From: Joostella atrarenae
GTDB lineage: Bacteria; Bacteroidota; Bacteroidia; Flavobacteriales; Flavobacteriaceae
Length of the DNA: 64,000 bases
Reading direction: 5' to 3'
Assembly (NCBI RefSeq): GCF_021764745.1
Contig: NZ_JAETXX010000001.1
Coordinates: 310,001-374,000, forward strand
The position numbers and the translations under genes were made by a program. The notes beneath the pieces were generated by a model, which was not told the origin of the DNA, searched no databases, and worked only from the letters and a program-made list of their open reading frames with translations. This document shows, one piece after another, positions 12,738 through 41,518 of this stretch (positions within the stretch are counted from its first letter, which is position 1; the number at the start of each line of letters is the position of its first letter).

Positions 12738-12769
12738 CTTTATTATTTTATAAGAATTATGCTAGCTTA

Positions 12770-13420: not shown

Positions 13421-13495
13421 ATAAAAAGCTATCGAAAACATGGTAATTATTTGTTAATAACTCATAGAGTTTCCCTATTTTGCAATAAACTTTTT

Positions 13496-16624: not shown

Positions 16625-16638
16625 TTAACCTAAACCTT

Positions 16639-16646
16639 TAACTTTG
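16639..16646 (+). promoter_or_regulatory. -7 box of kbl promoter
   Basis: TAACTTTG is an exact TAnnTTTG box 16 bases before the kbl ATG, so kbl has its own promoter and a very short leader. No clear -33 TTG. Confidence 0.6.
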
Positions 16647-16662
16647 CAAAAAACAACAGAAC

Positions 16663-17856
16663 ATGTACGGGAAAATAAAAGAACATTTAGAAAAAGAATT
16701 AGTAGAAATTAAAGAAGCTGGTCTTTATAAAAAGGAGCGAATTATCACTTCACAACAAGGAGCAGAAATCACTATTAACACAGGTGAAACAGTTCTTAAT
16801 TTTTGCGCCAATAACTATCTTGGTTTATCTTCTCATCCTGAGGTAATACAAGCCGCTAAAGACACTTTAGACTCTCATGGTTTCGGGATGTCATCAGTAC
16901 GTTTTATTTGTGGAACTCAAGACATACATAAAGAATTAGAAGAGAAAATAGCCGACTTTTACGGAACTGAAGATACTATATTATACGCTGCAGCTTTTGA
17001 CGCTAATGGAGGTGTATTTGAGCCGTTATTAACTGCGGAAGATGCTATTATTTCTGATTCATTAAACCACGCATCTATTATTGATGGCGTAAGACTTTGT
17101 AAATCTAAGCGTTACCGCTATCAGAATAGCGATATGGCAGATTTAGAGAAGCAATTACAGCAAGCAAATGAAGACGGAGCACGTTTTAAAATCATCGTTA
17201 CAGATGGTGTTTTTTCCATGGATGGGTTGGTAGCTCCTCTTGATAAAATTTGTGATCTAGCTGATAAATATGATGCATTGGTAATGATAGACGAATGCCA
17301 TGCAACGGGGTTCATTGGAGAAACTGGAAGAGGTACGCTAGAAGAAAAAGGAGTGATGGATAGAATAGACATCATTACAGGAACACTTGGTAAAGCACTT
17401 GGTGGAGCTATGGGTGGTTATACTACCGGAAAAAAAGAAATTATAGAAATTTTACGTCAGCGCTCACGTCCGTATTTATTCTCAAATTCTTTAGCTCCAA
17501 ATATTGTTGGCGCATCGATTAAAGTTTTTGACATGTTAACTAAAAGTACCACCCTTAGAGATCAGTTACAAGAAAACACTGCATATTTCAAAAATGGGAT
17601 GAAAAAAGCAGGTTTCGACATCATCGATGGAGACTCTGCAATAGTGCCAGTTATGCTCTATGATGCCAAATTATCGCAGAAAATGGCCGAAGAGCTGCTT
17701 GAGAAAGGTATCTACGTTATAGGTTTTTTCTTTCCCGTTGTACCTAAAGAAAAAGCAAGAATTAGAGTGCAATTATCGGCTGCGCACACCCGAGAACACT
17801 TGGATAAGGCAATAAATGCATTTACCGAAGTTGGTAAGGATCTAGGGGTCATTTAG
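16663..17856 (+). CDS. kbl: Glycine C-acetyltransferase (2-amino-3-ketobutyrate CoA ligase)
   Basis: Kbl is a cytoplasmic PLP enzyme that splits 2-amino-3-ketobutyrate with CoA into glycine and acetyl-CoA, the second step of threonine breakdown. The 397 residues match the family length. PLP binding is seen as Lys244 in [15 protein letters not shown], with the upstream [10 protein letters not shown] and [11 protein letters not shown] motifs. The [17 protein letters not shown] segment favours Kbl over AONS or ALAS relatives. Threonine dehydrogenase (tdh) is not next to it. A weak terminator overlaps its stop codon. Confidence 0.95.
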
Positions 17857-17876
17857 GGGACCTCTCTTTTTATTTT
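17845..17876 (+). terminator. Weak intrinsic terminator after kbl
   Basis: GGGGTC (17845-17850) pairs with GACCTC (17859-17864), with one G-U pair and an 8-base loop that contains the kbl stop codon. T-rich sequence follows (TCTTTTTATTTT). Confidence 0.5.
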
Positions 17877-17900
17877 AACTAAAAAAATATATATTTGTTT

Positions 17901-17930
17901 TTGTTAATAAATCATAACAACTTACATTTG
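17901..17930 (+). promoter_or_regulatory. Promoter of the ompA-like gene
   Basis: TTG (17901-17903), 19 bases, then TACATTTG (17923-17930): both boxes match the Bacteroidota consensus. The box ends 35 bases before the ATG. Confidence 0.75.
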
Positions 17931-17965
17931 TCTTTAAATTAACACTTAAAATTAAATAATTGAAC

Positions 17966-19315
17966 ATGAAACATCTTAGCAAATTACTAGTTGCTGCTTT
18001 CCTTTTTGTAGGGATTAGCAACATGAATGCTCAAGACCAGAACAATCCATGGCAAATCGCTTTTGGGGTAAACGCAGTTGATGCATACCCAACAAATTCT
18101 GATAGACCATATGCTTCAGAATCTTGGTTCGACGAGTATTTTAACGCAAGTGATCACTGGAACATTCTACCTTCTATTTCTTACGTATCTGTTTCTAAAT
18201 ACGTAGGTAGTGGAATATCTTTAGGAGTTCGTGGATCATTAAACAAAATTGAAAACCTTGGAGATATGTCAGTTGATGATTTATCTTACTACGGAGTTGA
18301 CGGTACTATTAAGTACAACTTCATTCAGGGTCACGTAATCGATCCTTTCATCGAGATTGGTGGGGGTTACACTTGGTTAGACGAAATCGGAGCTGGTACT
18401 CTTAATGGGGGTGTTGGTATGAACATCTGGTTTACTGAAAACTTAGGTCTTACTTTACAAACAGGTTACAAACATGTTTTCGAAGACTACTCTACTCCTC
18501 ACTTCCAGCACTTAGCTGGTCTTGCTATCAAATTTGGTGGTACTGACTCTGACGGAGATGGTGTATATGACAAAGATGATGCTTGTCCAGAAGTACCTGG
18601 TTTAAAAGCTTTCAACGGTTGTCCTGATTCTGATGGAGATGGTATCGAAGATTCTAAAGATGCTTGTCCAAACGAAGCTGGTACTGCTGCTATGAACGGT
18701 TGTCCTGATTCTGATGGAGACGGTGTAGCTGATCCTCAAGATGAGTGTCCAAATACTCCAGGTCTTAAAGAATTAGCTGGTTGTCCAGATTCTGACGGAG
18801 ATGGTGTAGCTGACAAAGATGACAAATGTCCTGAAGTTGCAGGTCCTGCTGCTACAAACGGTTGTCCAGATAAAGATGGTGACGGTGTACTTGACAAAGA
18901 TGACAAGTGTCCTGAAACTCCTGGAACTGTAGCTAACGACGGATGTCCTGAGTTATCTGCTGAAGTTCAGAAAGCATTAAATAACTATGCTAAAACTATC
19001 TTATTTGATACTGGTAAATCTACTATCAAACCTCAGTCTAAACAAGTATTAGCTGATATCATTGGAATTCTTAATGAGTATCCAAATGCTAAATTTACTG
19101 TAGATGGTCACACAGATAGTACTGGTAGTGATTCTCTTAACCAAAGACTTTCTGAGTCTAGAGCACTTTCTGTTAAAGAATACTTAGTATCTAACGGAAT
19201 TGACGGATTCAGATTATCTTCTGCTGGTTACGGTGAAACTAAGCCAATCGCTTCGAATTCTACTAGAGATGGTAGAGCTCAAAACAGAAGAGTTGAGATT
19301 AATTTAGTTAAGTAA
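17966..19315 (+). CDS. OmpA-family outer-membrane protein with thrombospondin type-3 repeats
   Basis: The ATG at 17966 ([19 protein letters not shown]) is preferred to an in-frame TTG six bases upstream. The 449-residue product has a signal peptide ending near MNAQ, an N-terminal beta-barrel (about residues 23-190), five thrombospondin-3 calcium-binding repeats (about 194-328) and a C-terminal OmpA peptidoglycan-binding domain ([56 protein letters not shown]). It should tie the outer membrane to the cell wall. Its strong promoter and strong terminator suggest high expression on its own. Confidence 0.93.
18545..18949 (+). repeat. Five in-frame 81-bp repeats coding for TSP3 units
   Basis: Five tandem units of exactly 27 codons, each starting D(S/K)DGDG and ending in a Gly/Asp-Cys-Pro (for example [17 protein letters not shown]...NGCP). 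The aspartates are the calcium ligands of thrombospondin type-3 repeats. The DNA similarity follows from the protein repeat. Confidence 0.85.
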
Positions 19316-19344
19316 TTAACTAAATTAGTTCAAAACATATAATG

Positions 19345-19375
19345 AAAACGCTCCGAATATTCGGAGCGTTTTTTT
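19345..19375 (+). terminator. Intrinsic terminator after ompA-like gene
   Basis: A perfect 28-bp palindrome (AAAACGCTCCGAAT and its complement, 19345-19372) followed by a T-run to 19375, starting 30 bases after the stop codon. Confidence 0.92.
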
Positions 19376-19425
19376 AATTATAATACTTTATATTTTGGTA
19401 ATTTAGTGGAAGAAAATTACTTTCC

Positions 19426-22191
19426 ATGAAATCATTCCTAGCTCAAGTAGCTTTAGAGATATATACTAAACATAAGGAACAATTACCATCCCTTACCATT
19501 ATACTTCCCAGCAAAAGGGCTGTTACATTCTTAAAAAATGAGCTCTTAAATATTGTAGAGAAAACTACCATTGCTCCAAACATTATTAGCATTGAAGAGT
19601 TTGTACAGCAGCTAGCAAATCTTAAATTAGCTTCTAATATTCAGCTTTCGTTTGAGTTTTATGAGGTTTATAAAAAAATCACGCCAGAAAATCAACAGGA
19701 AGATTTTTATTCATTTACATCTTGGTCTCAAACCATATTACAAGATTTTAATGAAATAGATCGATATTTAATAGATACAGAAACTTTCTTTTCTCACCTT
19801 TTCAATATTAAAGAATTAGATCAATTCCATTGGACCAATGCAGAAGAGAAAACAGAACTCCAAAAAAACTATCTTAAGTTTTGGGAGAAATTAGACCTCT
19901 ATTACAAAACTTTCAACAAGCATTTAGTAGATAAAGGAATTGGATATCAGGGAATGATATACCGCGAAGCAAATGATAATATAGAATCATTCATTGAAAA
20001 TCACCAAGAGATAGAGCATGTTTTCATCGGTTTTAATGCACTAAATAATGCTGAAAAGAATATTATTCAATCTTTTCTAAAAAAGACGAATGCAGATGTT
20101 TTTTGGGATATTGATAAAGTATTCTTAGAAAATACAGAACACGATGCTGGTTTATTCCTCAGGGATTACAAACAGAATTGGCCTCATTTCATCGAAAACG
20201 AATTTAAAATAACAAGCAATCACTTTTCAGAAGAAAAAAATATCAAGATAATAGGAGTCCCTAAAAATGTAGGACAAGCTAAATATGTTGGAGCTATTTT
20301 AGAGAATCTTAAAGGTGCTATAAAAAATACGGCAATTGTACTAGGAAATGAAAACCTATTAGCTCCAGTTTTAAATAGCATTCCACCAGAAATTCAGAAA
20401 GCTAATATTACAAGTGGTTTTCCTTTAAACCTATCTCCATTTGCTTCTTTTTTTGAAACATTACTGGATGTGTGGGACAAAACAAACGATCAATTATGGC
20501 ATTATCAAGATGTGATAAACATACTCTCAAACCCAATAAGTAATTCACTTCTAGAAAACATTAGCAAGGAAAGCATTGAATTAATTGAGAAGATTAAAAA
20601 GGAAAATCTTATATACATCAATCAAAATTCTTTAAATGAATTAAACCAAAAAGAAGCAAATCTATTCCTAGATAAAAAAGGAATTTCTATAAATACAGTA
20701 ATTGAAAACTGTATTTCTATAATTTTATCCTTGAAGGCAACATATACCAGCGATGAACAAAGAAATCCATTATTTCTTGAATACCTTTATCGCTTTTATG
20801 AAGTTTTTAATCAGCTAAAGACTTTCAACAATGAATATAAATCGATTACAGGGATTAAAACCCTAAAAAAAATATATGTAGAACTACTTGCTAGTGAAAC
20901 AGTAGATTTTAAAGGAGAACCGCTACAAGGATTGCAGATAATGGGAATGCTAGAAAGTAGAAATTTAGATTTCGAAACGGTTATACTAACTTCAGTTAAT
21001 GAAGGCATTCTTCCCGCAGGAAAAACAAACAGTTCATTTATTCCTTTTGATTTAAAAACTGCATTCGGATTACCTACTTATAAAGAAAAAGATGCCATTT
21101 ATTCGTACCACTTTTATAGGTTATTACAAAGAGCAAAAAACATATATCTTATTTACAATACAGAGCCTGATGCGTTGGAAGGCGGAGAGAAAAGTAGACT
21201 TTTGCAACAACTAACTATGCTTAAAGAGCCTAAGCATACTATTACAGAAACTATTGCTAGTCCAACCATAAAAAATGACAGAACAACATTAGCAACTATC
21301 AATAAAAGCGCAGCGGTTATAAATAAATTAAAGGAAGTTGCTGTAAAAGGGTTTTCACCAACTTCATTAAGTAACTATGTTCGAAATCCATTAGATTTTT
21401 ACACACAGTCTGTTTTAGGAATAAGGCAAGTTGAAGAGGTCGAAGAGACGATAGCAGCAAATACGTTGGGAACCATTGTTCATGATACTTTGGAGTTTTT
21501 CTACAAGCCATTAGAAGGTAAAATAGTTACACTAGAAGACACCAAGAAAATGCGTAAAGATCTCGATAAACAAGTTGGGATTCACTTTTCCAAATCATAT
21601 ACAGAAACAAAATCATTAAGAGGTAAAAATTTAATTTCTTATTATGTTGCCAAAAGATATATTGAGAATTTTCTAACTTTTGAAGAGCAAAGAATAAAAA
21701 AAGGAGCTATTGTAAAAATAATTAAAATTGAGAGTAATCTTAAAACGGAGCTCCACATAAAAGAATTGAATTTCCCCATTTTTATAAAAGGGAAAGTAGA
21801 TCGTGTAGAGGAAGTGGATGGAGTTATCAATATTATAGATTACAAAACAGGAAAAGTAGAACAAAAAGATGTTGAAATTATAGATTGGGAATGTTTAACT
21901 GAGGATTACAAATACAGCAAAGCATTTCAAATTCTTTGTTATGCATACATGATGCAAAAAAATAGTATTTATAATGAATTTCAAGGCGGTATCATTTCTT
22001 TTAAAAACATAAGAGGCGGCATTTTAAAGTTTACTAAAAAAGACGGTCCAGGCAGTAAAGCAACTAAAACACTTAAAATTAATACTGAAATTAAAAATGC
22101 TTTTCTAGAGCAATTAAACAACTTAGTGTTAGAAATATTCAATAAAGAAATTCCATTTCAGGAAAAAGAAATCCAAACACATGCATATTAA
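19426..22191 (+). CDS. AddB-like PD-(D/E)XK nuclease family protein
   Basis: The 921-residue product has the inactive-helicase-like N-terminus of AddB (SLTIILPSKRAVTFLKNEL, where active helicases have a Walker A) and a C-terminal RecB-type nuclease: SNYVRNPLDFYTQSVLGI, LGTIVHDTLEFF, KGKVDRVEEVDGVINIIDYKTG and QILCYAYMM. The ring of four cysteines that holds an iron-sulfur cluster in Bacillus AddB is not evident. It probably partners the AddA-like protein at 13496-16624. It overlaps the next gene by 11 bases, which suggests co-transcription with the hydrolase. Confidence 0.85.
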   Translation: MKSFLAQVALEIYTKHKEQLPSLTIILPSKRAVTFLKNELLNIVEKTTIAPNIISIEEFVQQLANLKLASNIQLSFEFYEVYKKITPENQQEDFYSFTSWSQTILQDFNEIDRYLIDTETFFSHLFNIKELDQFHWTNAEEKTELQKNYLKFWEKLDLYYKTFNKHLVDKGIGYQGMIYREANDNIESFIENHQEIEHVFIGFNALNNAEKNIIQSFLKKTNADVFWDIDKVFLENTEHDAGLFLRDYKQNWPHFIENEFKITSNHFSEEKNIKIIGVPKNVGQAKYVGAILENLKGAIKNTAIVLGNENLLAPVLNSIPPEIQKANITSGFPLNLSPFASFFETLLDVWDKTNDQLWHYQDVINILSNPISNSLLENISKESIELIEKIKKENLIYINQNSLNELNQKEANLFLDKKGISINTVIENCISIILSLKATYTSDEQRNPLFLEYLYRFYEVFNQLKTFNNEYKSITGIKTLKKIYVELLASETVDFKGEPLQGLQIMGMLESRNLDFETVILTSVNEGILPAGKTNSSFIPFDLKTAFGLPTYKEKDAIYSYHFYRLLQRAKNIYLIYNTEPDALEGGEKSRLLQQLTMLKEPKHTITETIASPTIKNDRTTLATINKSAAVINKLKEVAVKGFSPTSLSNYVRNPLDFYTQSVLGIRQVEEVEETIAANTLGTIVHDTLEFFYKPLEGKIVTLEDTKKMRKDLDKQVGIHFSKSYTETKSLRGKNLISYYVAKRYIENFLTFEEQRIKKGAIVKIIKIESNLKTELHIKELNFPIFIKGKVDRVEEVDGVINIIDYKTGKVEQKDVEIIDWECLTEDYKYSKAFQILCYAYMMQKNSIYNEFQGGIISFKNIRGGILKFTKKDGPGSKATKTLKINTEIKNAFLEQLNNLVLEIFNKEIPFQEKEIQTHAY

Positions 22192-23026
22192 CAGAAACAT
22201 AGTATTAGAAGGTAAACACAAAAGACCAATTCTAGTAGACACATATTGCAACAAAGAGATTAATGGGCAACCAATTGTAATTTTTTGTCACGGCTATAAA
22301 GGATTTAAAGACTGGGGATATTGGGATTTAGTCGCTAAAGAATTTGCAAATAACGGCATATGCTTTGTTAAGTTTAATTTCTCTCACAATGGAGGTACCG
22401 TGAAACAGCCAATAGATTTTCCAGATTTGGAAGCATTCGCACTAAATAATTTCACAATAGAATTAGACGACTTAGAAACCGTTATCGATTGGATAATAAG
22501 TAGTAATAATGAACTCTCAGAAAAAATAAATACTTCTGATATTACATTAATAGGTCATTCTCGTGGCGGTGGTATTGTAACAATAAAAGCTGCTGAAGAT
22601 AAGAAAATTACTAAATTAATTACATGGGCCAGTGTTAGCGATTTTAAAGCTCGATTTGCAGATGAAAAAGCACGCGCATATTGGAAGGAACAAGGTGTTA
22701 TTTACATTGAAAATAGTAGAACTAAACAGCAACTGCCTCATTATTATCAGTTCTATGAAGACTTCATCAAAAATGAAGAACGTTTTACAATAAAAAATTC
22801 AGCAGAAAATATTGATATCCCCTTTTTAATTATACACGGCACAAAAGATCCTACTGTAGATTTAAGAGAAGGAGAAGCTTTGCATAATTGGGGCTCAAAA
22901 AGCAAATTATTAGTAATTGATGAAGCTGATCATGTTTTTGGAGGAAAACATCCTTGGGAAGAAAAAAAGCTCCCACAACACATGAAACAGATTGTAGAAG
23001 CTTCGATAAATTTTATTGTTAAATAA
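22181..23026 (+). CDS. Alpha/beta hydrolase
   Basis: The 281-residue product has the oxyanion-hole segment FCHGYKGFKDWG, the nucleophile elbow LIGHSRGGGIV (catalytic Ser), an Asp in IIHGTKDPTVD and a His in DEADHVFGG, so the catalytic triad is complete. No signal peptide is seen. It resembles the serine aminopeptidase/acyl-esterase branch; substrate unknown. Its ATG lies inside the end of the AddB-like gene (11-base overlap), and its stop is 2 bases from the end of the convergent SDR gene. Confidence 0.88.
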   Translation: MHINRNIVLEGKHKRPILVDTYCNKEINGQPIVIFCHGYKGFKDWGYWDLVAKEFANNGICFVKFNFSHNGGTVKQPIDFPDLEAFALNNFTIELDDLETVIDWIISSNNELSEKINTSDITLIGHSRGGGIVTIKAAEDKKITKLITWASVSDFKARFADEKARAYWKEQGVIYIENSRTKQQLPHYYQFYEDFIKNEERFTIKNSAENIDIPFLIIHGTKDPTVDLREGEALHNWGSKSKLLVIDEADHVFGGKHPWEEKKLPQHMKQIVEASINFIVK

Positions 23027-23028
23027 AA

Positions 23029-23742
23029 TTATTTTTTATCTGGACGCGTTGGTCGCACTTCAATTTTACTAGGCAACGTTCTTGGATTCATTTTTAATAA
23101 ATCTAATACTAATTGTCCGATATCTTCAGGCTGTATTTTCCAAGCGTCATCTTTAGATGGAGTATGGTCGTTAAAGTGAGAAGCAACAGAGCCAGGCATA
23201 ATAGTTGACACTTTGATATCATACTTTCTAAGGTCTAGCATGGCAGCTTGTGTAAATCCTACAACGCCAAATTTAGTAGCATTATAACCAGCAGCTGTTG
23301 GAAAGAAATTTGTACCCGCCAAACTTGCTAATGTTATATAATAACCAGAAGATTTTTTTAAAGCCTCTACAGACGCTTTTAACGTATGAAAAACACCGTT
23401 TAAATTTGTATTTATCATTTGATGCCATGCATCGTCTTCTAACTCATCAATTGGAGCAAAATGACCAACACCTGCATTTGCAAGAACTACATCTAACTGC
23501 CCCCACTTATCCAAAATACTTTTTACAGCATCTTTTTCGTCTTGAATTTTAGTGACGTCAGAAGATAAACCAAGCACTAAATTACTATCACTACTTAAAT
23601 TGGAAGCTGCCTTTTCTGCATCTTCTAATTTACGACCGCTAATAGCCACTTTCATACCTGCTTTTACAAGCTCTTCTGCAACTCCGTATCCTATTCCTTT
23701 TGTTCCACCTGTTATATAGGCTACTTTTCCTTTTAAATCCAT
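23029..23742 (-). CDS. Short-chain dehydrogenase/reductase
   Basis: The ATG at 23742 (MDLKGKVAYITGGTKGIG) is the natural SDR start; an in-frame start 51 bases upstream would add an unlikely hydrophobic tail. The 237-residue product has the TGGTKGIGYG nucleotide-binding motif, NAGVG, and YNATKFG with catalytic Tyr and Lys. The sequence resembles sepiapterin-reductase-like or 3-ketoacyl-ACP-reductase-like SDRs; the substrate is unknown. Convergent with the hydrolase gene. Confidence 0.9.
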   Translation of the reverse strand: MDLKGKVAYITGGTKGIGYGVAEELVKAGMKVAISGRKLEDAEKAASNLSSDSNLVLGLSSDVTKIQDEKDAVKSILDKWGQLDVVLANAGVGHFAPIDELEDDAWHQMINTNLNGVFHTLKASVEALKKSSGYYITLASLAGTNFFPTAAGYNATKFGVVGFTQAAMLDLRKYDIKVSTIMPGSVASHFNDHTPSKDDAWKIQPEDIGQLVLDLLKMNPRTLPSKIEVRPTRPDKK

Positions 23743-23872
23743 TTGTTTAATTTTTATATAAAGATAAAAGCTAGGAAATAGAGTAAAAAACAAGCTACGT
23801 TATTCTTTTCTTAAAAGAACAACTTTGTCTGTAAGCTAAAAGACATTTTATAAAACATAGTTTTAACAAACA

Positions 23873-29439: not shown

Positions 29440-30156
29440 TTACACTTCGTAATTATCCCAATTAGCAATTTCATTTCTTTCTTCAGGTTTAATACAAATA
29501 TCTAAAGTACGCTGATCGTATTTCATATTATATTGAGCCAAAACATCGTCTGGAACTCCATCCCAAACATTTGGTGTATTCCCAACATAGCCAAGATATT
29601 TAATCCCTTCTTCGCTTGTAAAATATCCCGTAGACACTAAATCTCTCAAACGTGTAAAAAAGCGAGCTCCTTGAACAAGATGTGGCTTTACATCATCTGG
29701 ATAAGCAATATCTTCAACGATTTCTATCTGTTGCTCTTCAGAAATACTTTTAAACACCTTGTTAAAGCGTTTGTTACTTTCATGATCTATCCACATAATC
29801 CCACCTCGAAGTGGCAATTGATGATGCGGCATATCTAAAACTATGTATGAGATAAAGTCTATGACTCCTACTTTACTAGCTGCACTATAATCACCTTCAG
29901 CAGGAATAATTATATCAGCAAGAACAGTAAGTGTTTCTAATTCATGATCGTTAAAATAAGCCCCTTTAGCACGTAACTCCTCTTCATAGGCTAACTCTTC
30001 TTTGGTACGTGTTGTGTCGTAATTATTATCACTATCACTTGGCGCATCTGTGTTTGCAATGGTTGGCTCTTCGGTATCAGTAAGACATCCCGAAAACATA
30101 AATCCGGAAGTAACAGTACCTGCCACCATGGCTTTTAAACTTTTTCTTCTATCCAT
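29440..30156 (-). CDS. Gluconate 2-dehydrogenase subunit 3 family protein with Tat-like signal
   Basis: The 238-residue product starts MDRRKSLKAMVAGTVTSGFMFSGC: twin arginines followed by a hydrophobic stretch and a lipobox Cys, so export by Tat as a lipoprotein is likely. The mature part (LETLTVLADIIIPAEGDYSAA, GGIMWIDHESNKRF) matches gluconate 2-dehydrogenase subunit 3, the small subunit of membrane-bound sugar or sugar-acid dehydrogenases. In FAD glucose dehydrogenase the small subunit carries the Tat signal and helps export the catalytic subunit. It lies 12 bases after the GMC gene, its probable partner. Confidence 0.88.
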   Translation of the reverse strand: MDRRKSLKAMVAGTVTSGFMFSGCLTDTEEPTIANTDAPSDSDNNYDTTRTKEELAYEEELRAKGAYFNDHELETLTVLADIIIPAEGDYSAASKVGVIDFISYIVLDMPHHQLPLRGGIMWIDHESNKRFNKVFKSISEEQQIEIVEDIAYPDDVKPHLVQGARFFTRLRDLVSTGYFTSEEGIKYLGYVGNTPNVWDGVPDDVLAQYNMKYDQRTLDICIKPEERNEIANWDNYEV

Positions 30157-30168: not shown

Positions 30169-31908
30169 TTAAATATTCATTTTTTTCATTTCTTCTGTAA
30201 GATAATCAGACGCCCTCCAAGCCAATGCTAAAATTGTCCATGTAGGATTTTTATCTGCTTGAGAAACAAAAGCTCCACCATCCATAACAAATAAATTTGG
30301 CACATCATGCGTTTGATTATATCTGTTTACCACAGAAGTAGAAGGATCATCACCCATTCTCGTTGTACCTACTTCATGAATAATTCTTCCTGGAGCATCT
30401 AATCCATAATCGCTTTCTTTTCCAGGCTTATCTCCCAATGGAATAGCTCCCATGTTATGATAAAGCTCTTCAAAAGTGTCTTGCATGTGCTTTGCTTGCT
30501 TAACCTCATCGTCTGTCCAATTATAGTTAAAACGCAACACTGGAATTCCATATTTATCGACTACATTAGGATCTATCTCACAGTAATTATCTTTCTGCGG
30601 AATACTTTCACCTCTACCAGCCATACCAACCGTTGCACCATAATATCTACTAACATCTTCTTTTAGTCCAACTCCATAACCCCCAGCCTTTTTATTTTCG
30701 CCAGGTTTTTGAAACTTTCCATTAAGATTTTGAATTCCCATTCCAGCTCCATAAGAAGGCATTCCCATACCTCCCCAATATTCAATATGATATCCTCTAG
30801 AAAATCCAAGATCCTTTTTATCATTTAACCACCATGGAACATATAAATGCATTCCTCCAACACCATCTTCATTATAACGTTTTCTTTCCATTAATTCAGG
30901 AATTATTGCAGATCTAGAGGCTCCTGTAGAATCGTGTAAATACTTTCCTACTACACCACTAGAATTGGCAACTCCATTTGGAAATCTTTCTGACTTAGAA
31001 TTCAATAAAATTCTAGCAGAACTACAAGCACTAGCAGCTAAGATAACAACTTTTGCTTTTACCGTGTACTCTTGATTATCATATTTATTTACATAAGAAA
31101 CACCTGTAGCTTTTCCATTTTCGTCCGTTAAAACCTCTCTTACCATTGCATTTACATAGAGATCTACATTATCATACTCCAATGCTGGTTTTACCAAAAC
31201 AGATGAAGACGAGAAATCTCCGTAAATACTACATGAACGAGAACATTGACTACAATAGAAACAAGCACCACGACGATTGTCTACACGCTTAGTAAGAATA
31301 GAAAGTCTTGATGGAATAACAGGAATATTAGATTTTGCTCCTGCTTTTTTAAGATATAATTCGTGTAAACGGGGTTTTGGTGGTGGTAAAAAATACCCAT
31401 CTGGTTCATTTTTAATATTTTCTTTACTCCCAAAGACTCCAATAAATTTATCAACCTTGTCGTAGTAAGGTTTTACATCGTCATAAGAAATAGGCCAGTT
31501 ATCTCCTTTTCCATCAAAATCTTTTCTTTTGAAGTCCAAAGGCCCAAAACGTAGCGATATACGTCCCCAGTGATTTGTTCTTCCACCAACCATTCTAGAA
31601 CGGAACCAATCAAATTTAGATCCATTTTTATGAGTGTACGGTTCGCCATCTAGCTTCCATCCACCATAAGCCATATCGAAATCTCCAAAAGCTCTTGTGC
31701 TTCCGGCCCCTCGACGAGGAGATTCATAAGGCCATTTAAATTGCGTTTGTTGATCGGGATTAGCAGGGTCAAAATTAGGTCCAGCTTCTAGCAAGGCTAT
31801 TTTAAAACCAGCTTCAGAAAGCACCTTTGTCGCCATTCCTCCTCCAGCTCCAGAACCCACGACCAAAATGTCGTAAACCTTAGACGCTTCTTTAATTTGA
31901 AAAGACAT
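30169..31908 (-). CDS. GMC-family FAD-dependent oxidoreductase (sugar dehydrogenase type)
   Basis: The 579-residue product has the FAD-binding VVGSGAGGGMATKVL at residues 16-30, the GMC segment VGGRTNHWGRISLR, and the C-terminal GMC domain (HEVGTTRMGDDPSTSVVNR, NPTWTILALAWR). A cysteine cluster CFYCSQCSRSC (CX2CX2CX3C) in the middle is like an iron-sulfur site; FAD glucose dehydrogenases carry such a cluster. There is no signal peptide, which fits export together with the Tat-signal subunit 12 bases downstream. Lying behind two alpha-mannosidase genes, it may oxidise mannose or a related sugar in the periplasm (inference). No cytochrome subunit is adjacent. Confidence 0.9.
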   Translation of the reverse strand: MSFQIKEASKVYDILVVGSGAGGGMATKVLSEAGFKIALLEAGPNFDPANPDQQTQFKWPYESPRRGAGSTRAFGDFDMAYGGWKLDGEPYTHKNGSKFDWFRSRMVGGRTNHWGRISLRFGPLDFKRKDFDGKGDNWPISYDDVKPYYDKVDKFIGVFGSKENIKNEPDGYFLPPPKPRLHELYLKKAGAKSNIPVIPSRLSILTKRVDNRRGACFYCSQCSRSCSIYGDFSSSSVLVKPALEYDNVDLYVNAMVREVLTDENGKATGVSYVNKYDNQEYTVKAKVVILAASACSSARILLNSKSERFPNGVANSSGVVGKYLHDSTGASRSAIIPELMERKRYNEDGVGGMHLYVPWWLNDKKDLGFSRGYHIEYWGGMGMPSYGAGMGIQNLNGKFQKPGENKKAGGYGVGLKEDVSRYYGATVGMAGRGESIPQKDNYCEIDPNVVDKYGIPVLRFNYNWTDDEVKQAKHMQDTFEELYHNMGAIPLGDKPGKESDYGLDAPGRIIHEVGTTRMGDDPSTSVVNRYNQTHDVPNLFVMDGGAFVSQADKNPTWTILALAWRASDYLTEEMKKMNI

Positions 31909-31946: not shown

Positions 31947-34322
31947 TTATTTATTGTAAAGGATTTTATTTGGGCGATTACTCATATAAAAGTTTAACTC
32001 GCCTCCTTTTATAATATCGTCATGCTTTATAAATGGTTCCTTTAATTCTTTACCATTTAATAAAACTTTATCGACAAATACATTTTCTTCGGATTGATTA
32101 TTAACAACCACTTTAAATTTATTACCATTTTCAAGATTCACAGTAGCGCTTTTCATCGCAGGGCTTCCTAATGCATATACATCTGAGCCTGGTGCAACTG
32201 GATAAAACCCTAAAGTACTAAAAATATACCAAGCACTCATTTGTCCAAAATCATCATTCCCACCTAAACCATCAGCTTTAGGTTGGTACATTGCTTTTAA
32301 TATCATCCTAATTTTATCTTGAGATTTCCATGGAGTATCTGTCCAATTATACAAGTACACTACATGGTGAGAAGGTTCATTTCCATGAACATAATTACCA
32401 ATTATTCCTTCACGGGAAATATCTTCCGTATTTTCAAAATATTTATCTGGTAGATCCATAGAAAAAAGCGAATCTAAATGCTGCGAAAAGACTTCCTTTC
32501 CTCCCATCATTTCAATCATCTTATTTGGCGCGTGTGGGACATACAAACTATAATTCCACGAGTTACCTTCAATAAAACCTTGCCCATGAGTATTTAATGG
32601 ATCAAAATCCTTTTTAAAGCTTCCGTCGTCTAATTTAGGACGCATAAACCCGCTTTTCTCATCATATACATTTTTATAATTCTCAGCACGTTCACTAAAT
32701 TCGTTATAAATATCATCCTTCCCTAGTTTCTTTGCTGCCTGCGCAATTGCCCAATCATCATAAGCATACTCTAGCGTTTTAGAAACAGAAGAACCATTTT
32801 TATCTTCTGGAACATATCCTTTTTCCATATAATATTCTAAGCCATCGTAATAAGGAACCTTTGCTGTATGAACACTTGCCATAAGTGCAGCTTCAGCATC
32901 AAAACCTGTATTACCTTTTACAATAGCATCAGCAATTACAGAAACACTGTGATATCCAATCATACACCAATTCTCATTGGCATAATGAGACCAAACTGGA
33001 AGCATTCCATGTACACTTTGATTATAATGCGAAACCATAGAATTAATCATGTCTGAATTTCTCTTAGGTTGCAATACATTGAATAATGGATGTAATGCTC
33101 TGTATGTATCCCATAAAGAAAAACTAGTGTAATTTGTAAAATTCTCAGCTTGATGAATATTCATGTCTAAACCACGATATTTACCATCAACATCCATATA
33201 AACTGTTGGACCAAGAAAAGCATGATACATTGCCGTATAGAAATTTACCATTTCATCTTGATTTATAGGATCCAATTGAACCTTATTCAGTTCAGAATTC
33301 CATGAATTTTGTGTTTCCTCCTTGACTTTTTCAAAATCCCAATGAGGAATCTCTACATTCATATTATTAATAGCCCCTTTTGTACTCACAGGAGAAATAG
33401 CAAACTTAATTTTCACCTTTTCACCTTCAGAAGTATTAAAATCAAAATATGCTTTTAAATTTTCTCCCGCCATTTCTGGAAAGTTAGTGTTTTGGTCAAA
33501 CTTTCTCCAAAAGCCCTTGTAAACATTATTGTCATAATTTTCTTGACCATATTTAGTGATTGGCTTACTAAAAGCCATCGCAAAATAAACTTTACGTGTT
33601 CTTGCCCAACCATTAGTTTGTCTGTAACCAGTAACTAGCGTATCGTTTTCTACACGAACAAAGGTCCATACATTTTTCTCCTTATAATTATAAATTCCCG
33701 ATGTTAGATCTAAAATAATATGAGATGCTTCCGATTTTGGAAACGTATACTGATGCATCCCTACACGTGTAGTCGCAGTTAATTCAGCTTTAATATTATA
33801 ATCTTCTAGCTGAACGCTATAATAACCAGCTTCTGCATGCTCATTTTTATGAGAAAATCGTGAACGATACCCAGTGTCTGGATTAGATTCTGTTCCTGGA
33901 TTCATTTGAAGCTCGCCTACAGTAGGCATGATTAAAAAATCACCTAAATCTGAATGTCCTGTACCGCTAAAATGTGTATGACTAAAACCAACAATAGTTG
34001 TATCATCATATTGATATCCTGCGCAATATTTATATACATCTGGATTATAATGCCCATCTAACTCATAAGGAATGGTATCCGTATCTGGACTTAGTTGTAC
34101 ACTCCCAAATGGAGCCGTAGCACCTGGGTATGTATGTCCCATTTTGGCAGTTCCAATCATTGGATCTACATACTGGACTAAATTTTGGAAATCATCAGTA
34201 TGATTAGAAGCTGACTCATTAGCGACTCCTTTCTTCTGATTACACGTCACAAACATTAATGCTGAGAAAAAAACAGCAAACTTTAACGTACATTCATATA
34301 TAAATTTAGGAGGTTTTATCAT
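31947..34322 (-). CDS. GH92 family alpha-mannosidase, lipoprotein
   Basis: The 791-residue product has an N-terminal lipoprotein signal (lipobox LMFVTC near residue 27), then the GH92 layout: VDPMIGTAKMGHTYPGA at the start of the beta-sandwich, FIEGNSWNYSLYVPH (general acid region), HGNEPSHHVVYLYNW, and GLGGNDDFGQMSAWYIFSTLGFYPV with the acidic residues of the catalytic site. GH92 enzymes are calcium-dependent exo-alpha-mannosidases that trim mannans or N-glycans. It should be displayed in the envelope. It follows the second GH92 gene by 24 bases. The exact linkage cut cannot be read from the sequence. Confidence 0.93.
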   Translation of the reverse strand: MIKPPKFIYECTLKFAVFFSALMFVTCNQKKGVANESASNHTDDFQNLVQYVDPMIGTAKMGHTYPGATAPFGSVQLSPDTDTIPYELDGHYNPDVYKYCAGYQYDDTTIVGFSHTHFSGTGHSDLGDFLIMPTVGELQMNPGTESNPDTGYRSRFSHKNEHAEAGYYSVQLEDYNIKAELTATTRVGMHQYTFPKSEASHIILDLTSGIYNYKEKNVWTFVRVENDTLVTGYRQTNGWARTRKVYFAMAFSKPITKYGQENYDNNVYKGFWRKFDQNTNFPEMAGENLKAYFDFNTSEGEKVKIKFAISPVSTKGAINNMNVEIPHWDFEKVKEETQNSWNSELNKVQLDPINQDEMVNFYTAMYHAFLGPTVYMDVDGKYRGLDMNIHQAENFTNYTSFSLWDTYRALHPLFNVLQPKRNSDMINSMVSHYNQSVHGMLPVWSHYANENWCMIGYHSVSVIADAIVKGNTGFDAEAALMASVHTAKVPYYDGLEYYMEKGYVPEDKNGSSVSKTLEYAYDDWAIAQAAKKLGKDDIYNEFSERAENYKNVYDEKSGFMRPKLDDGSFKKDFDPLNTHGQGFIEGNSWNYSLYVPHAPNKMIEMMGGKEVFSQHLDSLFSMDLPDKYFENTEDISREGIIGNYVHGNEPSHHVVYLYNWTDTPWKSQDKIRMILKAMYQPKADGLGGNDDFGQMSAWYIFSTLGFYPVAPGSDVYALGSPAMKSATVNLENGNKFKVVVNNQSEENVFVDKVLLNGKELKEPFIKHDDIIKGGELNFYMSNRPNKILYNK

Positions 34323-34346: not shown

Positions 34347-36632
34347 TTATTCATTTGATAAAGAATATGGAGCATCTGATTTTTCTGTTCCTCTATTCTT
34401 ATTAGGCGTGCTACTCATTTCAAAATCAATCTTAGCTCCTTCCATTAAAGCTTTATGACTGATAAAGTTTTTGCTATAATTCTGCCCGTTGAAACTCATT
34501 TGATCCACATACCTATTCTTGTCACTATTATTAGGGGCATCAATTATAACTTTTTTACCATTTTGTAATTCAACAGTAAGCTTTTTAAATAGTGGGGCAC
34601 CTAAAACATATTCATCCGTTGCTGGACAAACTGGATAAAATCCCATTGCAGAAAACACGTACCAAGCTGATGTTTGTCCGTTATCTTCATCACCACAATA
34701 ACCGTCTGGCGTAGGCATATACATTCTATCCATTGTTTCACGAACCCAATACTGAGTTTTCCATGGTTGAGAAGCATAATTATACAAATAAATCATGTGT
34801 TGAATAGGTTGATTCCCATGTGCATATTGCCCCATGTTTGCTATTTGCATTTCTCGAATTTCGTGGATAACACCTCCATAATAGCTTTCATCAAAAATTG
34901 GTGGTAAAGTAAATACTTCGTCTAGTTTTGCTGTAAAACTATCTTTCCCTCCCATTAAATCCATAAGTCCTTGGATATCATGAAAAACAGACCATGTATA
35001 ATGCCAACTATTACCCTCAGTAAAAGCATCTCCCCATTTAAATGGATTAAATGGCTCCATGAATTTACCCTCTTTATTTTTACCACGCATTAAATTGGTT
35101 TCCTTATCGAATAGATTTTTATAGTTTAAACTTCTTTCTTTATAAAGTTTTATTTCTTTTTTAGGTCTGTCTAAGGCTTTTGCTAGCTGGTAAATTGCAA
35201 AATCATCATAAGCATATTCTAATGTACGGGCTGCATTTTCATTAATATCTACATCGTAAGGAACATAACCTAAGTCTTTATAATATTCTGCTCCAGCACG
35301 CCCAACAGCAGTAAGCGGCCCTGCATTATTTGCTCCATGAATAACAGCTTCATAAAGTGTCTCTATGTCGTAATTAGCATCTTTATTTTTAAGATAAGCA
35401 TCTGCAACTACAGAAGCGGAGTTATTTCCAACCATAACACTTCTAAGTCCTGGACTTGCCCATTCTGGCAGCCATCCACTTTCTTTGTAAGCATTTGCCA
35501 AACCTTCTTGCATTTGAACATTTAACTCAGGATACATTAAATTTAAGAAAGGAAATAGAGATCGGAAGGTATCCCAAAAACCTGTGTCCGTAAACATGTA
35601 TCCAGGCAAGACCTTACCATTGTATGGACTATAATGAACTACGTTTCCATCTTTATCGTATTCAAAAAACTTTCTTGGAAAAAGAAGAGAACGGTATAAG
35701 CAAGAATAGAAAGTCTCAAACTGATCTATAGTTCCGCCTTCTACTTTAATTCTATTTAATTCTTTATTCCATATATTTCTTCCTGCTTCTTTTAAAGCAT
35801 CAAAATCATTATTCCCAATTTCTTTTAAATTAATTTCAGCTTGTTCAATACTTATAAAAGAAGACGCTACTTTGGCATTTACCTGTTGTCCTTTTTTGGT
35901 TTTAAATCCAACAACGGCACCAACATGATCTGCTTCATTTTCTAAAACATCTTGAAGTTTATTGTTGCTGAAAGTATTTGTACTAACAAAAGGCGTATCA
36001 AATTCAATAACAAAATAATTTTTAAAATTGTCAGGTACACCACCGCTATTTTTAGTAGTATAACCTATTATTTTATTTTCCTTCGGAAGTAATTTTACAT
36101 ATGATCCTTTATCTAATGCATCGATTACAATATAAGCACTATCGGTTTCTGGAAAAGTAAATCTAAAGCGAGCAGCTCTCTCTGTTGGTGTAATCTCTGT
36201 GGTAACATTGTGATCTGCCAAATAAACACTATAATAATGAGGCTTTACGGTTTCGGCTTTATGAGAAAACCAACTTGCACGATCGTCTTCATTAAAAACT
36301 AACTTTCCAGTAATTGGCATGATAGCAAATTGCCCATAGTCGTTCATCCAAGGTGATGGCTGATGTGTTTGTTTAAAACCTCGGAGTTTATCTGCATCGT
36401 ATTCATATGCCCAACCATTCCCCATTTTACCAGTTTGAGGTGTCCAAAAATTCATTCCCCAAGGCATTGCAATAGCTGGATATACATTACCATTAGACAT
36501 ACTTGGTTTTGAGTCGGTTCCCATTAAGGGCTTGACATAATCAATTGGATTCTCAATTGAAGCTATTTGCTTTGTTTGTCCAAAAGCGACTGAACAAGCA
36601 AAGAATAGTGAGGTAAGGAGTAAAAATCTCAT
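34347..36632 (-). CDS. GH92 family alpha-mannosidase, secreted
   Basis: The 761-residue product has a cleavable signal peptide (MRFLLLTSLFFACSVAFGQ) rather than a lipobox. It carries VKPLMGTDSKPSMSNGNVYPAIAMP, TEGNSWHYTWSVFHD, HGNQPIQHMIYLYNY, and GYCGDEDNGQTSAWYVFSAMGFYPV, all in GH92 order. It differs from its downstream neighbour at the NQPIQH/NEPSHH and GDED/GNDD positions, so the two probably cut different linkages (inference). It is the first gene after susD; a hairpin lies in the 152-base gap between them. Confidence 0.93.
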   Translation of the reverse strand: MRFLLLTSLFFACSVAFGQTKQIASIENPIDYVKPLMGTDSKPSMSNGNVYPAIAMPWGMNFWTPQTGKMGNGWAYEYDADKLRGFKQTHQPSPWMNDYGQFAIMPITGKLVFNEDDRASWFSHKAETVKPHYYSVYLADHNVTTEITPTERAARFRFTFPETDSAYIVIDALDKGSYVKLLPKENKIIGYTTKNSGGVPDNFKNYFVIEFDTPFVSTNTFSNNKLQDVLENEADHVGAVVGFKTKKGQQVNAKVASSFISIEQAEINLKEIGNNDFDALKEAGRNIWNKELNRIKVEGGTIDQFETFYSCLYRSLLFPRKFFEYDKDGNVVHYSPYNGKVLPGYMFTDTGFWDTFRSLFPFLNLMYPELNVQMQEGLANAYKESGWLPEWASPGLRSVMVGNNSASVVADAYLKNKDANYDIETLYEAVIHGANNAGPLTAVGRAGAEYYKDLGYVPYDVDINENAARTLEYAYDDFAIYQLAKALDRPKKEIKLYKERSLNYKNLFDKETNLMRGKNKEGKFMEPFNPFKWGDAFTEGNSWHYTWSVFHDIQGLMDLMGGKDSFTAKLDEVFTLPPIFDESYYGGVIHEIREMQIANMGQYAHGNQPIQHMIYLYNYASQPWKTQYWVRETMDRMYMPTPDGYCGDEDNGQTSAWYVFSAMGFYPVCPATDEYVLGAPLFKKLTVELQNGKKVIIDAPNNSDKNRYVDQMSFNGQNYSKNFISHKALMEGAKIDFEMSSTPNKNRGTEKSDAPYSLSNE

Positions 36633-36784: not shown

Positions 36785-38284
36785 TTACCAATCTGGATTC
36801 TGTGTCAACTCTTTATTGTTATTAATTTCCCTTTGCGGAATTGGAAATAACAAATACTTTTCTGTAAGCGTAGGTCCATATGAAAATTGATGCCCTACAA
36901 AATTTTCAAAACTTCCAGTGGTAAGGTTTAAAGCTTTTCTTCTTCTTGCCATGTCAAACCAATATTTATTTTCGAACGAAAGTTCATAAAAACGTTCTTT
37001 CCAAATATCTTCCTGTGTAATACTTGCGTCATATAATGGTAAATTAGCTCTATCTCTAACTTCATTTATAGCAGCAAGTACATCTTTAGTTGCTCCATAA
37101 GCTTCGAATCCTGCTTCTGCATATGTTAATAAAACTTCAGCATATCTAAAGAACTTCCAACCAAGGCTACTTTGCGCCGTTCTTAAAACTGCATCTTCAT
37201 CAAAATATTTATATATATATGTAGCGCTAAAATCAACTATTTCATTCGGGTCATCAATAGAAGGGTACTCTGTAAAGTAAAACTCTTGTTCTTCTAAACG
37301 TTTATCACCTGCTTCATGTGCATCTATAAAATCTTGAGTTGGATACAGCGCTCCATATTCATCAGAAAATTGAGAAATCCCTCTAGATCTTGGTAACATC
37401 CATGATGTTAAACCACTTGTAGCAAATCCTACTAAATATTGATTCTGAAAAATAATCTCTCCCGTGTTATTAATATTTGGGTCATGTAAATTATCATAAT
37501 CATCAAAAAGACTATATTTCTTACTATCTATTACCTCTTTTGCTTTATCTGCAGCTAACTTATAATAATTATCCCCTGCCTGTAATGGATAACCCGCCAT
37601 AGTAAGATACACACTAGACAATAATGTTTTTGCAGCTCCTAGACCTACTCTTCCTGACTCATCTGTAAAAGGAATTCCAGAGTTTTCTACATCTTTGAGG
37701 TCTGCAACAATTGCATTATAAACCTCCTGCTGCGGACTTCTTGCTGGATAAAGTAACTCAGATGATGCGTCTACAGGTTCTAAAATTAAAGGCACATCTC
37801 CAAACAACCTTACTAAATGAAAGTAATAAAAAGCTCTAACAAACTTAGCCTGACCAATAAGGTTGTCCTTATCAGATTGCGCCATATCTACTTCTGGGAT
37901 ACGAGCAATTGCCAGGTTTGCATTTGCTATGGCTCTATATGAATTCTGCCACCAGTTTAAAACATAAGCATCTTCTGAGTTTGCTGTTAGGTTTCTATAT
38001 GCATTGTTAAATTGGCTTTGTCCAACCTCTGTATTGCACAGACCTGTTGCAAATTCTAGCATCATAAATGGACTTTCTCCATAGGTACCAGAACCATCAC
38101 TAACAAACCTCAATGAAGCATATAGAGTATTTATTGCCGACTCCGCTTGTTCTCTAGTTTGAAAGTAATTGTCTTGAGTATATTCAGATTCATTTTCTTC
38201 AGCTAAAAAATCTGAACAACTACTTACTCCTACTAAAACTAAACATAGGAGAGCGTTGATATATATTTTTTTTGAAATTTTCAT
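36785..38284 (-). CDS. SusD/RagB-type glycan-binding lipoprotein
   Basis: The ATG at 38284 is preferred to an in-frame TTG nine bases upstream, giving 499 residues that start MKISKKIYINALLCLVLVGVS with lipobox Cys near residue 23. Typical SusD features follow: TQDNYFQTREQAESAINTLYA, AKFVRAFYYFHLVRLFGDVPL, AKTLLSSVYLTMAG (TPR helices) and the C-terminal WKERFYELSFENKYWFDMAR and NPDW ending. It should bind mannan fragments at the surface with the upstream SusC, 18 bases away. It is complete, although the susC gene is broken. Confidence 0.95.
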   Translation of the reverse strand: MKISKKIYINALLCLVLVGVSSCSDFLAEENESEYTQDNYFQTREQAESAINTLYASLRFVSDGSGTYGESPFMMLEFATGLCNTEVGQSQFNNAYRNLTANSEDAYVLNWWQNSYRAIANANLAIARIPEVDMAQSDKDNLIGQAKFVRAFYYFHLVRLFGDVPLILEPVDASSELLYPARSPQQEVYNAIVADLKDVENSGIPFTDESGRVGLGAAKTLLSSVYLTMAGYPLQAGDNYYKLAADKAKEVIDSKKYSLFDDYDNLHDPNINNTGEIIFQNQYLVGFATSGLTSWMLPRSRGISQFSDEYGALYPTQDFIDAHEAGDKRLEEQEFYFTEYPSIDDPNEIVDFSATYIYKYFDEDAVLRTAQSSLGWKFFRYAEVLLTYAEAGFEAYGATKDVLAAINEVRDRANLPLYDASITQEDIWKERFYELSFENKYWFDMARRRKALNLTTGSFENFVGHQFSYGPTLTEKYLLFPIPQREINNNKELTQNPDW

Positions 38285-38302: not shown

Positions 38303-41300
38303 TTAAAAAGTAAGGTTTAACCCCAAAGTAAATGTTCGAGGTTTAGGGTAGTCAAAAAATGTGATTCCTTGTGCAAACGCATCACCATATGTACTTACTT
38401 CAGGATCATAACCAGTATAATCTGTTGCCAAAAAGAAGTTTTGTACGGATGCGTATAATCTTAATCTTTTCAGTTTAAATTTATCTAAAATATCTTGAGA
38501 GAAGTTATAACCTAAGATTAAGTTTCTACCTCTAATAAAGGAAGCATCTTCTACCATTCTTGAATCAATAGTAGATCTATAGTAAGCACTAGACGGTCTG
38601 TTTTGAGCAATCATTGTATTTTGATTGTCTGGTGTCCATCCATCTAAAACAGTTGCATAACTATTTGCTTGCCCTGTTCTATCTTCTCCAGAGTGTCTAG
38701 ACAAATTCAAAACATCATTACCATATGAGAACTGAAGATCTAATGTAAGATCTAAGTTTTTATATCTAAATGTATTAAACAATGCACCAAACCCTTTAGG
38801 ATATCCACTTCCTATTATTTTTCTATCGGCAGCATTTATTTGCCCATCTTCATTTAAATCTGCATGCTTAATATCTCCAGGTAAAAGACCATAGATAGCA
38901 GCCTCATCAGCCTCATCGCTCCCCCAAGTTCCTTCTCGAACTAAACCGTAAAAAGATCCTACAGATTCTCCTACTCTTAAAATATTAGTGTCGGATAAAA
39001 AGCCTGGGCCAGGGAAAATATCATCATCCTCTTCTCCCAAAGCCAATATTTCATTCTTATTAAATGAAATATTGAATGTTGTAGTCCATGAAAAGTCTTC
39101 AGAACTGATATTAACAGTGTTTAGCGTTAACTCCAAACCTTTATTCTGCATACTCCCTATATTAGAATAAATATTAGAGTAACCACTAGAAGTTGGAACT
39201 GGTGCATTCAATAGCATGTCTGTTGTCTTTTTGTAATAAACATCTGCTTCTAATTCTATTCTATTATTAAACATACCCAATTCGACACCAGCATCAAATT
39301 GCGCTGTTTTTTCCCATTTTAGATTAGGATTTGCTAAAGTCCCAATACCTACACCTGGATACCTTTCTCCTCCTAAAATTGCTGTATTAGAGCCCAAACT
39401 AGCTAAAGACTGATAAACTCCGATTTCTGAATTTCCAGTTTCTCCATAACTTGTTCTGAATTTAAGATTGGAAATAGTTTCACTATCTTTTAAAAAGTCT
39501 TCTTCTGAAACTTTCCACGCAAATGCTGCTGAAGGGAAAAAAGCTCTTTTATTCTCTTCCCCAAATTTTGAAGAACCATCTAAACGCCCAGTAACAGTGA
39601 ATAAATATTTATTCATTAAACTATAGTTTATTCTTCCAAAGAAAGAATTAAGTGTCCATTGGTATGTATCTGAATCAGGTGTAAGTGGATTTGCTCCTAC
39701 TTCTAAATTATTAAATTGATAAAAATCATCTGTAAAACCTCTACTTCCAGCATAGCTATAAAAATAGTCATATTGTTGCCAACTAAGTCCAGCTAAGGCA
39801 TTAATTCTATGATTCTCGTTGAATTCATAGTCATAAGTTAGATAGTTTTCAAATTGCCAATAATTTGTTCTCGTATTTCTTATAGTTGCTTCCCCTTGAA
39901 AATTTGCACTTAGGTTATTTAATTCTCTTCCTGAGTAAAAATCATCTTGGATATTATTAATATTCGCTCCAATACTACTTCTTAATTGAAGATTTTTAGT
40001 AATATCAATATTAGCATAAACATCTCCTAAAAAGGATTGTGTTTTTAGAATGTTAGTACGGTTTAAAAGTATGTTTACAGGGTTTTCTCCTCCTTCCATA
40101 TTTGGGTAATCAGCGTTTGTACCATAATCTCCATTTGGATATTTCACAGGAACAATAGGAAGTGTCTCAACCATCATTCTTAAGGCTGTTAAACCACCTA
40201 CACCTCCATCAACTCTATTTTCTTCTATATGATTAAATGTAAAGCTACCACCTACTTTTAGCCAGTCTTTAACCTGACCATCTAATACTAATCTCCCAGA
40301 ATATCTTTTTAAATATGATTCTAAAAGAACTCCTTCCTGATCAGAATGATTTAAATACAATCCATAAGATGTCTTTTCATTCCCTCCAGTAAACGAAAGA
40401 TTATGATTTTGAGTTATAGCAGTTCTAGTTGCTTCTTCTTGCCAGTCTGTATCATATAATGGATTTCCATTAGCATCAAATAAATTAGAATCATCACGAT
40501 AATTCATTGGGTTTTCATACTTCCCATTCGCCCAACCAACTGGATCATACTTTTGCGCATTGTTATAAGAATTCATTTCTACTTGCAAAAACTCTTCAGA
40601 ATTTAAAACATCTAGCTTTCTTACCATCTCACCAATACTAATAAAAGAATCAAAGCTTACTTGACCTCCAGTTTTAGAACCTCTCTTAGTTGTTACAATG
40701 ATCACTCCATTAGCACCTCTTGCTCCATAAATTGCGGTTGCAGAAGCATCCTTCAAAACCTCCATTGATTTAATATCATTGGGATTTAAATAATTAATAG
40801 GTCATGCTCCAATAACTCCATCTACTACATATAATGGCGAATTATTTGCATTAATAGAGTTATTACCTCTAATTCTTACATTTGTATTTCCTCCTGGCCT
40901 ACCAGAGTTTGAAGAAACATTAACCCCCGCTGCTTTACCAGCCAATGCCTGCTCCGGATTAGTCGTTGGAATCTCTTGGATAGACTCACTATTTATTGTT
41001 GATACAGAACCTGTTAAGTCAGATTTTCTTTGAGTTCCATAACCTATCACAACAACTTCATCTAAAGCCTGTGTATCAGGTTGCAATGTAATATCAACAG
41101 AAGATTGTCCGTCTACTGCCACCTCTTTAGTTTTAAAACTGATAAAACTAAAGACTAAAATAGCATTATCAGGTACATCATTTAACTCATAGTTACCATC
41201 AAAGTCGGTTTGTGTTCCATTTGAAGTACCTTTTACTAAAACATTGGCTCCAGGCAATGGACCATTTTCATCTGAAACAGTTCCAGAAACCGTTTGCGCT

Positions 41301-41365
41301 TGCGTAATACCAAAGCATAAAAATGCTATTGGCAAAACAAGCCTTTTAAATAAATTAGCTTTCAT
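38303..41365 (-). pseudogene. SusC/RagA-type TonB-dependent transporter interrupted by an in-frame TGA
   Basis: The reading frame runs unbroken for 1021 codons except for TGA at 40804-40802. The first part (187 residues, 41365-40805) has a signal peptide, the beta-sandwich SGTVSDENGPLPGANV, LDEVVVIGYGTQRKSDLTGS and VVDGVIGA. The stop follows, then [26 protein letters not shown], the rest of the plug and the full barrel ending LGLNLTF. Relatives have Gly where the stop is, so one G-to-T change (GGA to TGA) explains it. The downstream part could start again at ATG 40765 but would lack a signal peptide. It may be a true pseudogene, a sequencing error, or read through. Confidence 0.85.
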
Positions 41366-41397: not shown

Positions 41398-41518
41398 TAA
41401 ATCGTTTTTAACGAACTAAAAAATAACACTAAAATCATAGTAAAACGTTTTAGTAGTGTTTTTTAAAAAAAATAGAAGTAAAAATACCCCTATGTTTTAA
41501 AATCAATAAAACGATTAA
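41398..41518 (-). promoter_or_regulatory. Three copies of a TAAAACGTTTTA-like palindrome in front of the mannan susC
   Basis: A perfect 12-bp palindrome TAAAACGTTTTA (41441-41452) is flanked by TAAATCGTTTTT (41398-41409) and TAAAACGATTAA (41507-41518), each matching 10 of 12. They lie 33 to 153 bases upstream of the ATG. Centred CG and repetition suggest binding sites for a LacI-like or similar regulator not in this window. No exact TAnnTTTG box was found here. The remainder of the 264-base gap (41366-41629) is AT-rich without a gene. Confidence 0.45.

Follow-up and report, generated by a model that had tools for sequence, protein, structure and literature searches.

Within the window, by which we mean the whole 64,000-nucleotide stretch of DNA analysed here, a gene for a SusC/RagA-type TonB-linked outer membrane transporter is interrupted by an in-frame TGA. 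This poses the question whether the transporter has recently been lost, whether the base is wrong, or whether the stop is read through. These three options had been put forward in an earlier note on this DNA, and they turned out to be the right set. We favour a recent and real nonsense mutation that has inactivated an otherwise functional SusC, and give this reading a probability of roughly 0.7. How probability is divided between a mutation and an error is a matter of judgement.

One stop codon in an otherwise complete SusC gene

On the minus strand, the SusC frame begins with an ATG at 41365, continues through 187 open codons to the TGA at 40804..40802, which is codon 188, and is then open to a TAA at 38303 (Table 1). 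This agrees with the earlier note, which had described an in-frame TGA at this place with open frame on either side. A translated genome search found this one TGA and zero other stops within the frame, and comparison with the orthologs of two congeners (G003 and G004) revealed no frameshift, gap or second lesion. If the stop is read as one residue, the protein matches TIGR04056 with 925 bits against a cut-off of 368.25, over positions 1-981 of the 981 in the model. The Pfam domains found are CarbopepD_reg_2, plug and barrel. The stop sits within the plug, between its VVDG and NPND motifs. With the stop read through, the closest solved chain by sequence is 8aa4_A, a 'SusC homolog' (E 2.1e-166).

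Translation would stop in the plug after 187 codons, leaving a fragment without the barrel. The first in-frame ATG after the stop lies at 40765 and corresponds to codon 201. A restart at this codon would yield a barrel that lacks the N-terminal start region as well as the greater part of the plug. With a barrel-less fragment and an incomplete restart product, the SusC gene most likely gives rise to no working transporter. It had been claimed that a signal-less restart at 40765 could not rebuild one. Here, the in-frame ATG does exist and Pfam sees the barrel alone in the piece that follows it, while the absence of a signal peptide is deduced from the position of the ATG and not from a prediction tool.

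Table 1. Features of the interrupted SusC gene and its locus (positions in the window).
Feature	Position	Strand	Remarks
SusC/RagA-type TonB-linked outer membrane transporter gene	38303..41365	-	1020 codons + TAA, single interruption; TIGR04056, Pfam
Internal TGA, SusC codon 188	40802..40804	-	GGA (Gly) in both congener orthologs
SusC open piece 1, 187 aa	40802..41365	-	start region, CarbopepD_reg_2, plug profile positions 2-65 of 107
SusC open piece 2, 820 aa, from in-frame ATG codon 201	38303..40765	-	Pfam: beta-barrel alone
SusD-type lipoprotein gene, intact	36785..38284	-	ATG 38284; profile, Pfam and dN/dS work began at 38278 in this frame
GH92 family (alpha-mannosidase) gene, intact	34347..36632	-	family profile, congener comparison
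GH92 family (alpha-mannosidase) gene, intact	31947..34322	-	family profile, congener comparison
GMC-type oxidoreductase gene, intact	30169..31908	-	family profile, congener comparison
Gluconate 2-dehydrogenase subunit 3-like gene, intact	29440..30156	-	Pfam, congener comparison
Palindrome TAAAACGTTTTA upstream of SusC	41441..41452		also upstream of SusC in G003 and G004

Codon 188 in relatives

Relatives were compared with one genome per species. Three of the seven Galbibacter genomes, counting the one that contains the window (the window genome), have a match to this SusC at E<=1e-200, namely the window genome, G003 and G004. The orthologs in G003 (95% identity) and G004 (91%; its sequence is that of locus L012, Galbibacter pacificus CAA-3) have an open frame and GGA at codon 188. 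The genus name Galbibacter is taken from the identity between the G004 and CAA-3 copies, G004 belonging to the same genus group as the window genome. Since both carry GGA, the single G-to-T route to TGA that the earlier note had proposed is supported. The note had also stated that the position is a glycine in relatives. This is true of the close orthologs, and Gly is also present in more distant members from Sinomicrobium (L013), Belliella (L014) and Deminuibacter (L019). In the wider family, however, it is not a conserved glycine. The 80 aligned sequences (G003 and 79 of the 80 top loci, locus L035 having missed the site) have Asn in 25 cases, Ser in 17, Gly and Glu in 11 each, Ala and Asp in 5 each, Thr in 4, Gln in 1 and a gap in 1. 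A stop or TGA, Trp or any other aromatic residue is found at the site in none of these 80. The site looks like a loop, so that the pairwise alignment of distant members is approximate here.

Among the best-scoring SusC matches listed for the seven Galbibacter genomes, an internal stop occurs in 1 of 150 rows, 24 of which belong to the window genome. In a family-wide survey (E<=1e-160, with at most two rows scored per genome), it occurs in 1 of the 143 SusC rows listed, which come from 96 of 299 family genomes. In both cases, with rows tallied by hand, the interrupted row is the SusC described here.

Constraint after the stop

With G004 as outgroup, the 832 codons that follow the stop (codons 189-1020) show 5 replacement changes that are specific to the window genome, against 110 silent ones. 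The corresponding G003-specific changes are 12 and 107; these are simple counts, taken on codons where the other two species agree. Against G003, pairwise dN/dS of SusC is 0.043 for the codons that precede the stop and 0.023 for those that follow. On account of this constraint in the codons after the stop, an old pseudogene was rejected.

If replacements had been free since the stop arose, its age would be below 2.9% of the branch at 95% with a baseline of zero, and below 1.2% at 95% with half the G003 rate as baseline; silent sites are near saturation (pairwise dS about 1.1), so that these fractions are rough. A stop that inactivated SusC would then be younger than about 3% of the branch. The claim that the transporter was lost very recently can now be expressed in numbers, provided that SusC has been unconstrained since the stop.

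Quality of the assembly

The window genome is a 3.99 Mb draft of 71 contigs. To survey it for broken genes, 354 kb were compared with 404 kb of G003. Altogether 177 G003 ORFs were matched at >=65% identity in the window genome and 19 of them were flagged, among which SusC is the sole one judged to have an internal break. The other 18 flags comprise 13 ORFs that overlap another ORF over more than half of their length, one at the sample edge, one with a divergent C-terminus, one that differs at its last residues and two whose differences lie before the likely start. For 4 of the 19 flagged ORFs the judgement rests on inspected alignments, and for the rest on overlap or coordinates. Searching the other way round gave 169 matched ORFs; 15 of these were flagged, and 6 of the flagged ones were examined as alignments. 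The G003 sample contains one gene divided between two frames, and perhaps a second such case. The split gene (G003:C1 about 612501-613659, L148) is broken near residue 134 and has a whole counterpart of 387 aa in the window genome; it represents either a frameshift or an error in G003. Lesions or errors are present at a similarly low density in this neighbour.

No stop was found inside the matched stretches of 52 TonB-barrel, 31 SusD and 5 GH92 rows of the window genome, a control that is blind outside the matched domain. It is a weak one, given that the broken SusC's own barrel row shows no stop. A poor assembly was rejected, as the compared stretch holds no further internal break and the matched domain rows hold no stop. 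A collapsed repeat or mis-joined paralog was likewise rejected, as a DNA search of the SusC region against its own genome returned no near copy of any length. The best other match has 71% identity over 293 bases, and higher identities are confined to short pieces (82% over 71 bases, 95% over 40 and 96% over 25).

The surrounding locus

The SusD gene lies directly downstream of SusC. It and the four further genes of the locus are complete and evolve under constraint, with pairwise dN/dS of 0.025-0.043, which confirms that the rest of the locus is intact. The SusD and enzyme genes may have escaped decay so far simply because the stop is too recent.

The designation of this region as a mannan locus goes beyond the evidence. 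The locus contains two GH92 (alpha-mannosidase family) genes, and no endo-mannanase family is found among the matches of its genes. As the enzymes are of the GH92 and oxidoreductase types, the substrate may be another alpha-mannoside. A second GH92 locus is located on a separate contig (G000:C45:10000-29999, L178). It encodes a SusC, a SusD, a DUF3823 protein, two GH92 enzymes and a sulfatase, all in open frames. With its own open SusC and SusD at hand, loss of the interrupted SusC may cost little, and alpha-mannoside use need not be lost.

Upstream of SusC, the palindrome TAAAACGTTTTA looks like a putative operator, perhaps for a LacI-family regulator. Half-matching boxes are found near it. 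A scan of the region upstream of SusC for sigma-70-type promoters returned 2 sites where 2.6 were expected; both lie on the opposite strand.

The window contains another SusC region, at 351..3395 and 3597..7721, whose SusC is 37% identical to the SusC of the congener loci. It adjoins genes for a LacI-family regulator, a KduI/IolB-like protein, an SDR and a DUF4861 protein, a gene content that suggests a uronate-type locus. In the 77 kb stretches compared from G003 and G004, tblastn at E<=1e-10 found no counterpart of the genes listed for 3597..23793; the exception is 17960..19315, which has a partial 34% match in G004.

tRNA-Trp and the context of the UGA

One tRNA-Trp was found in the window genome. 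It has a CCA anticodon and is encoded outside the window (G000:C4:18212-18322; L117, L179). With the numbering set from the anticodon, it has a U11-A24 pair of the Hirsh type and an unpaired C27/U43 atop the anticodon stem. A24 and U43 are found in 7/7 Galbibacter genomes, and C27 in 4/7 (the window genome, G002, G003 and G005). The congeners thus have the same features and no stop in their listed SusC, so the tRNA-Trp does not explain the stop. Relative to G003 the tRNA-Trp differs at 4 sites, of which two form a compensated 7/66 pair and one is position 26. As a comparison, 19 of 25 isoacceptors show at most one difference from their best G003 match (25 of the 31 in the window genome were compared; 6 had no G003 locus at hand). 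A special alteration of tRNA-Trp in the window genome was rejected, because sites 24, 27 and 43 are identical to G003 and the 7/66 change is compensated.

In PMC13092985, several such states of tRNA-Trp are linked to UGA readthrough. A G43U variant of the E. coli tRNA-Trp, which is equivalent to C27/U43, is described there as mediating UGA readthrough in work by others, G24A as facilitating it, and C27A as raising it about 2.5-fold in E. coli with overexpressed tRNA-Trp. The same text refers to an in vitro test where C27A by itself was without effect, describes tRNA-Trp with a 4-bp stem as common in standard-code bacteria, and leaves open whether such tRNAs cause readthrough at native expression levels.

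The base after the TGA at codon 188 (+4) is C, whereas the 7 TGA terminators among 162 orthologous genes are followed by T (5 genes) or A (2 genes). According to PMC5289835, a C at +4 increases readthrough in yeast, a U at +4 reduces it in both yeast and E. coli, and UGA misreading by tRNA-Trp in E. coli is favoured by +4A and not by +4C. With +4C favourable in yeast but +4A being the E. coli case, the argument from context is mixed. Shuffled sequences fold as well as the RNA that follows the stop (z 0.10).

In a sample of 249 ORFs of the window genome, TGA is the rarest stop, with 10 occurrences against 50 of TAG. As a fraction of TGA plus TAG, it amounts to 10/60 in the window genome, 22/75 in G003 and 8/31 in low-GC relatives. 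Avoidance of TGA as a sign of a leaky UGA was rejected, as low-GC relatives show the same.

Discussion

The data confirm a clean codon that is either a very young nonsense mutation or a wrong base, and is ordinary in kind. We consider it probable that a single G-to-T change turned the GGA of codon 188 into TGA, very recently and in this strain. For this speak the single lesion in 1020 codons, the one step that separates it from the codon of both congeners, the constraint on the codons after it and on the other genes of the locus, and the fact that lesions are seen in the neighbour G003 too. However, a wrong base would give the same picture, and an error or a function sustained by readthrough would account for the strong constraint behind the stop as well as youth does. 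That the base is real in the organism, and that function is lost, are both conclusions that we infer. If the base was introduced during sequencing or polishing, or was fixed by mutation in the sequenced culture alone, the gene would be intact in the organism. An isolated substitution in a gene without signs of decay, in a genome of many contigs, is in keeping with this, as is the class of the change, G-to-T/C-to-A. Oxidation of template DNA can yield changes of this class. Conversely, SusC is the sole internal break of the window genome in the stretch compared with G003, the matched TonB-barrel, SusD and GH92 stretches are free of stops (the weak control), and the region is not duplicated in its own genome. 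On balance we regard a wrong base as unlikely.

Considerably less probable is a stop that is real but leaky, in which the UGA-C of codon 188 is read as Trp or a near-cognate residue by the tRNA-Trp with U11-A24 and open C27/U43, so that a little full-length SusC is made. The sole tRNA-Trp found combines states that PMC13092985 ties to UGA readthrough, so that the loss caused by a nonsense mutation may be incomplete; the +4 C departs from the bases at the regular TGA terminators and resembles the favourable yeast context (PMC5289835); family members vary in the residue they have here; and TGA is the rarest stop. Yet A24 and U43 are genus-wide while the remaining listed SusC rows are all uninterrupted, aromatic residues are absent from the site in the 80 aligned sequences, and low-GC relatives in general make little use of TGA. 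Moreover, the cited texts describe such tRNAs as common under the standard code, with C27A alone ineffective in vitro (PMC13092985), and place the E. coli preference for misreading at +4A (PMC5289835). No unusual RNA structure follows the stop. Programmed recoding, whether through selenocysteine insertion, by a suppressor tRNA or under an altered genetic code, is extremely improbable. The open frame around the TGA is all that speaks for it, and a search for SelB, a tRNA with a UCA anticodon, an altered RF2 and a downstream structure found none of these. SelB exceeds the family cut-off in 0/7 Galbibacter genomes, no UCA anticodon is present at the 40 tRNA matches of the window genome, and the RF2 gene has an open frame and closely resembles its G003 counterpart. 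In addition, TGA terminates 7/162 orthologous genes, 0/80 aligned sequences have TGA at the site, and the other listed SusC rows are free of internal stops.

Should the base prove real and readthrough low, this SusC would not be made, which would leave the SusD and the enzymes without an importer of their own. Annotation should not credit the strain with uptake by this SusC/SusD pair until the base has been checked. As a fresh nonsense allele, the stop has little import beyond annotation. Were leaky reading true, UGA nonsense alleles would be only partial losses in this clade, and the locus would offer a natural test of whether a tRNA-Trp with a 4-base-pair stem softens UGA mutations in a free-living bacterium.

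The gene resembles SusC/RagA transporters (TIGR04056) in a full-length match if the stop is taken as one residue, and differs from them by the stop in its plug. With recent nonsense pseudogenes it shares a single substitution to a stop in a constrained gene, intact neighbours and the absence of the stop from congeners; we see no distinguishing difference from this class, although mutation and error both fit. The tRNA-Trp is similar to those with a 4-bp anticodon stem, as described in PMC13092985, in its unpaired 27/43, its natural CCA anticodon and its being the sole tRNA-Trp found. It falls outside the 'Blastocrithidia-like' class as that text defines it, since it also has A24.
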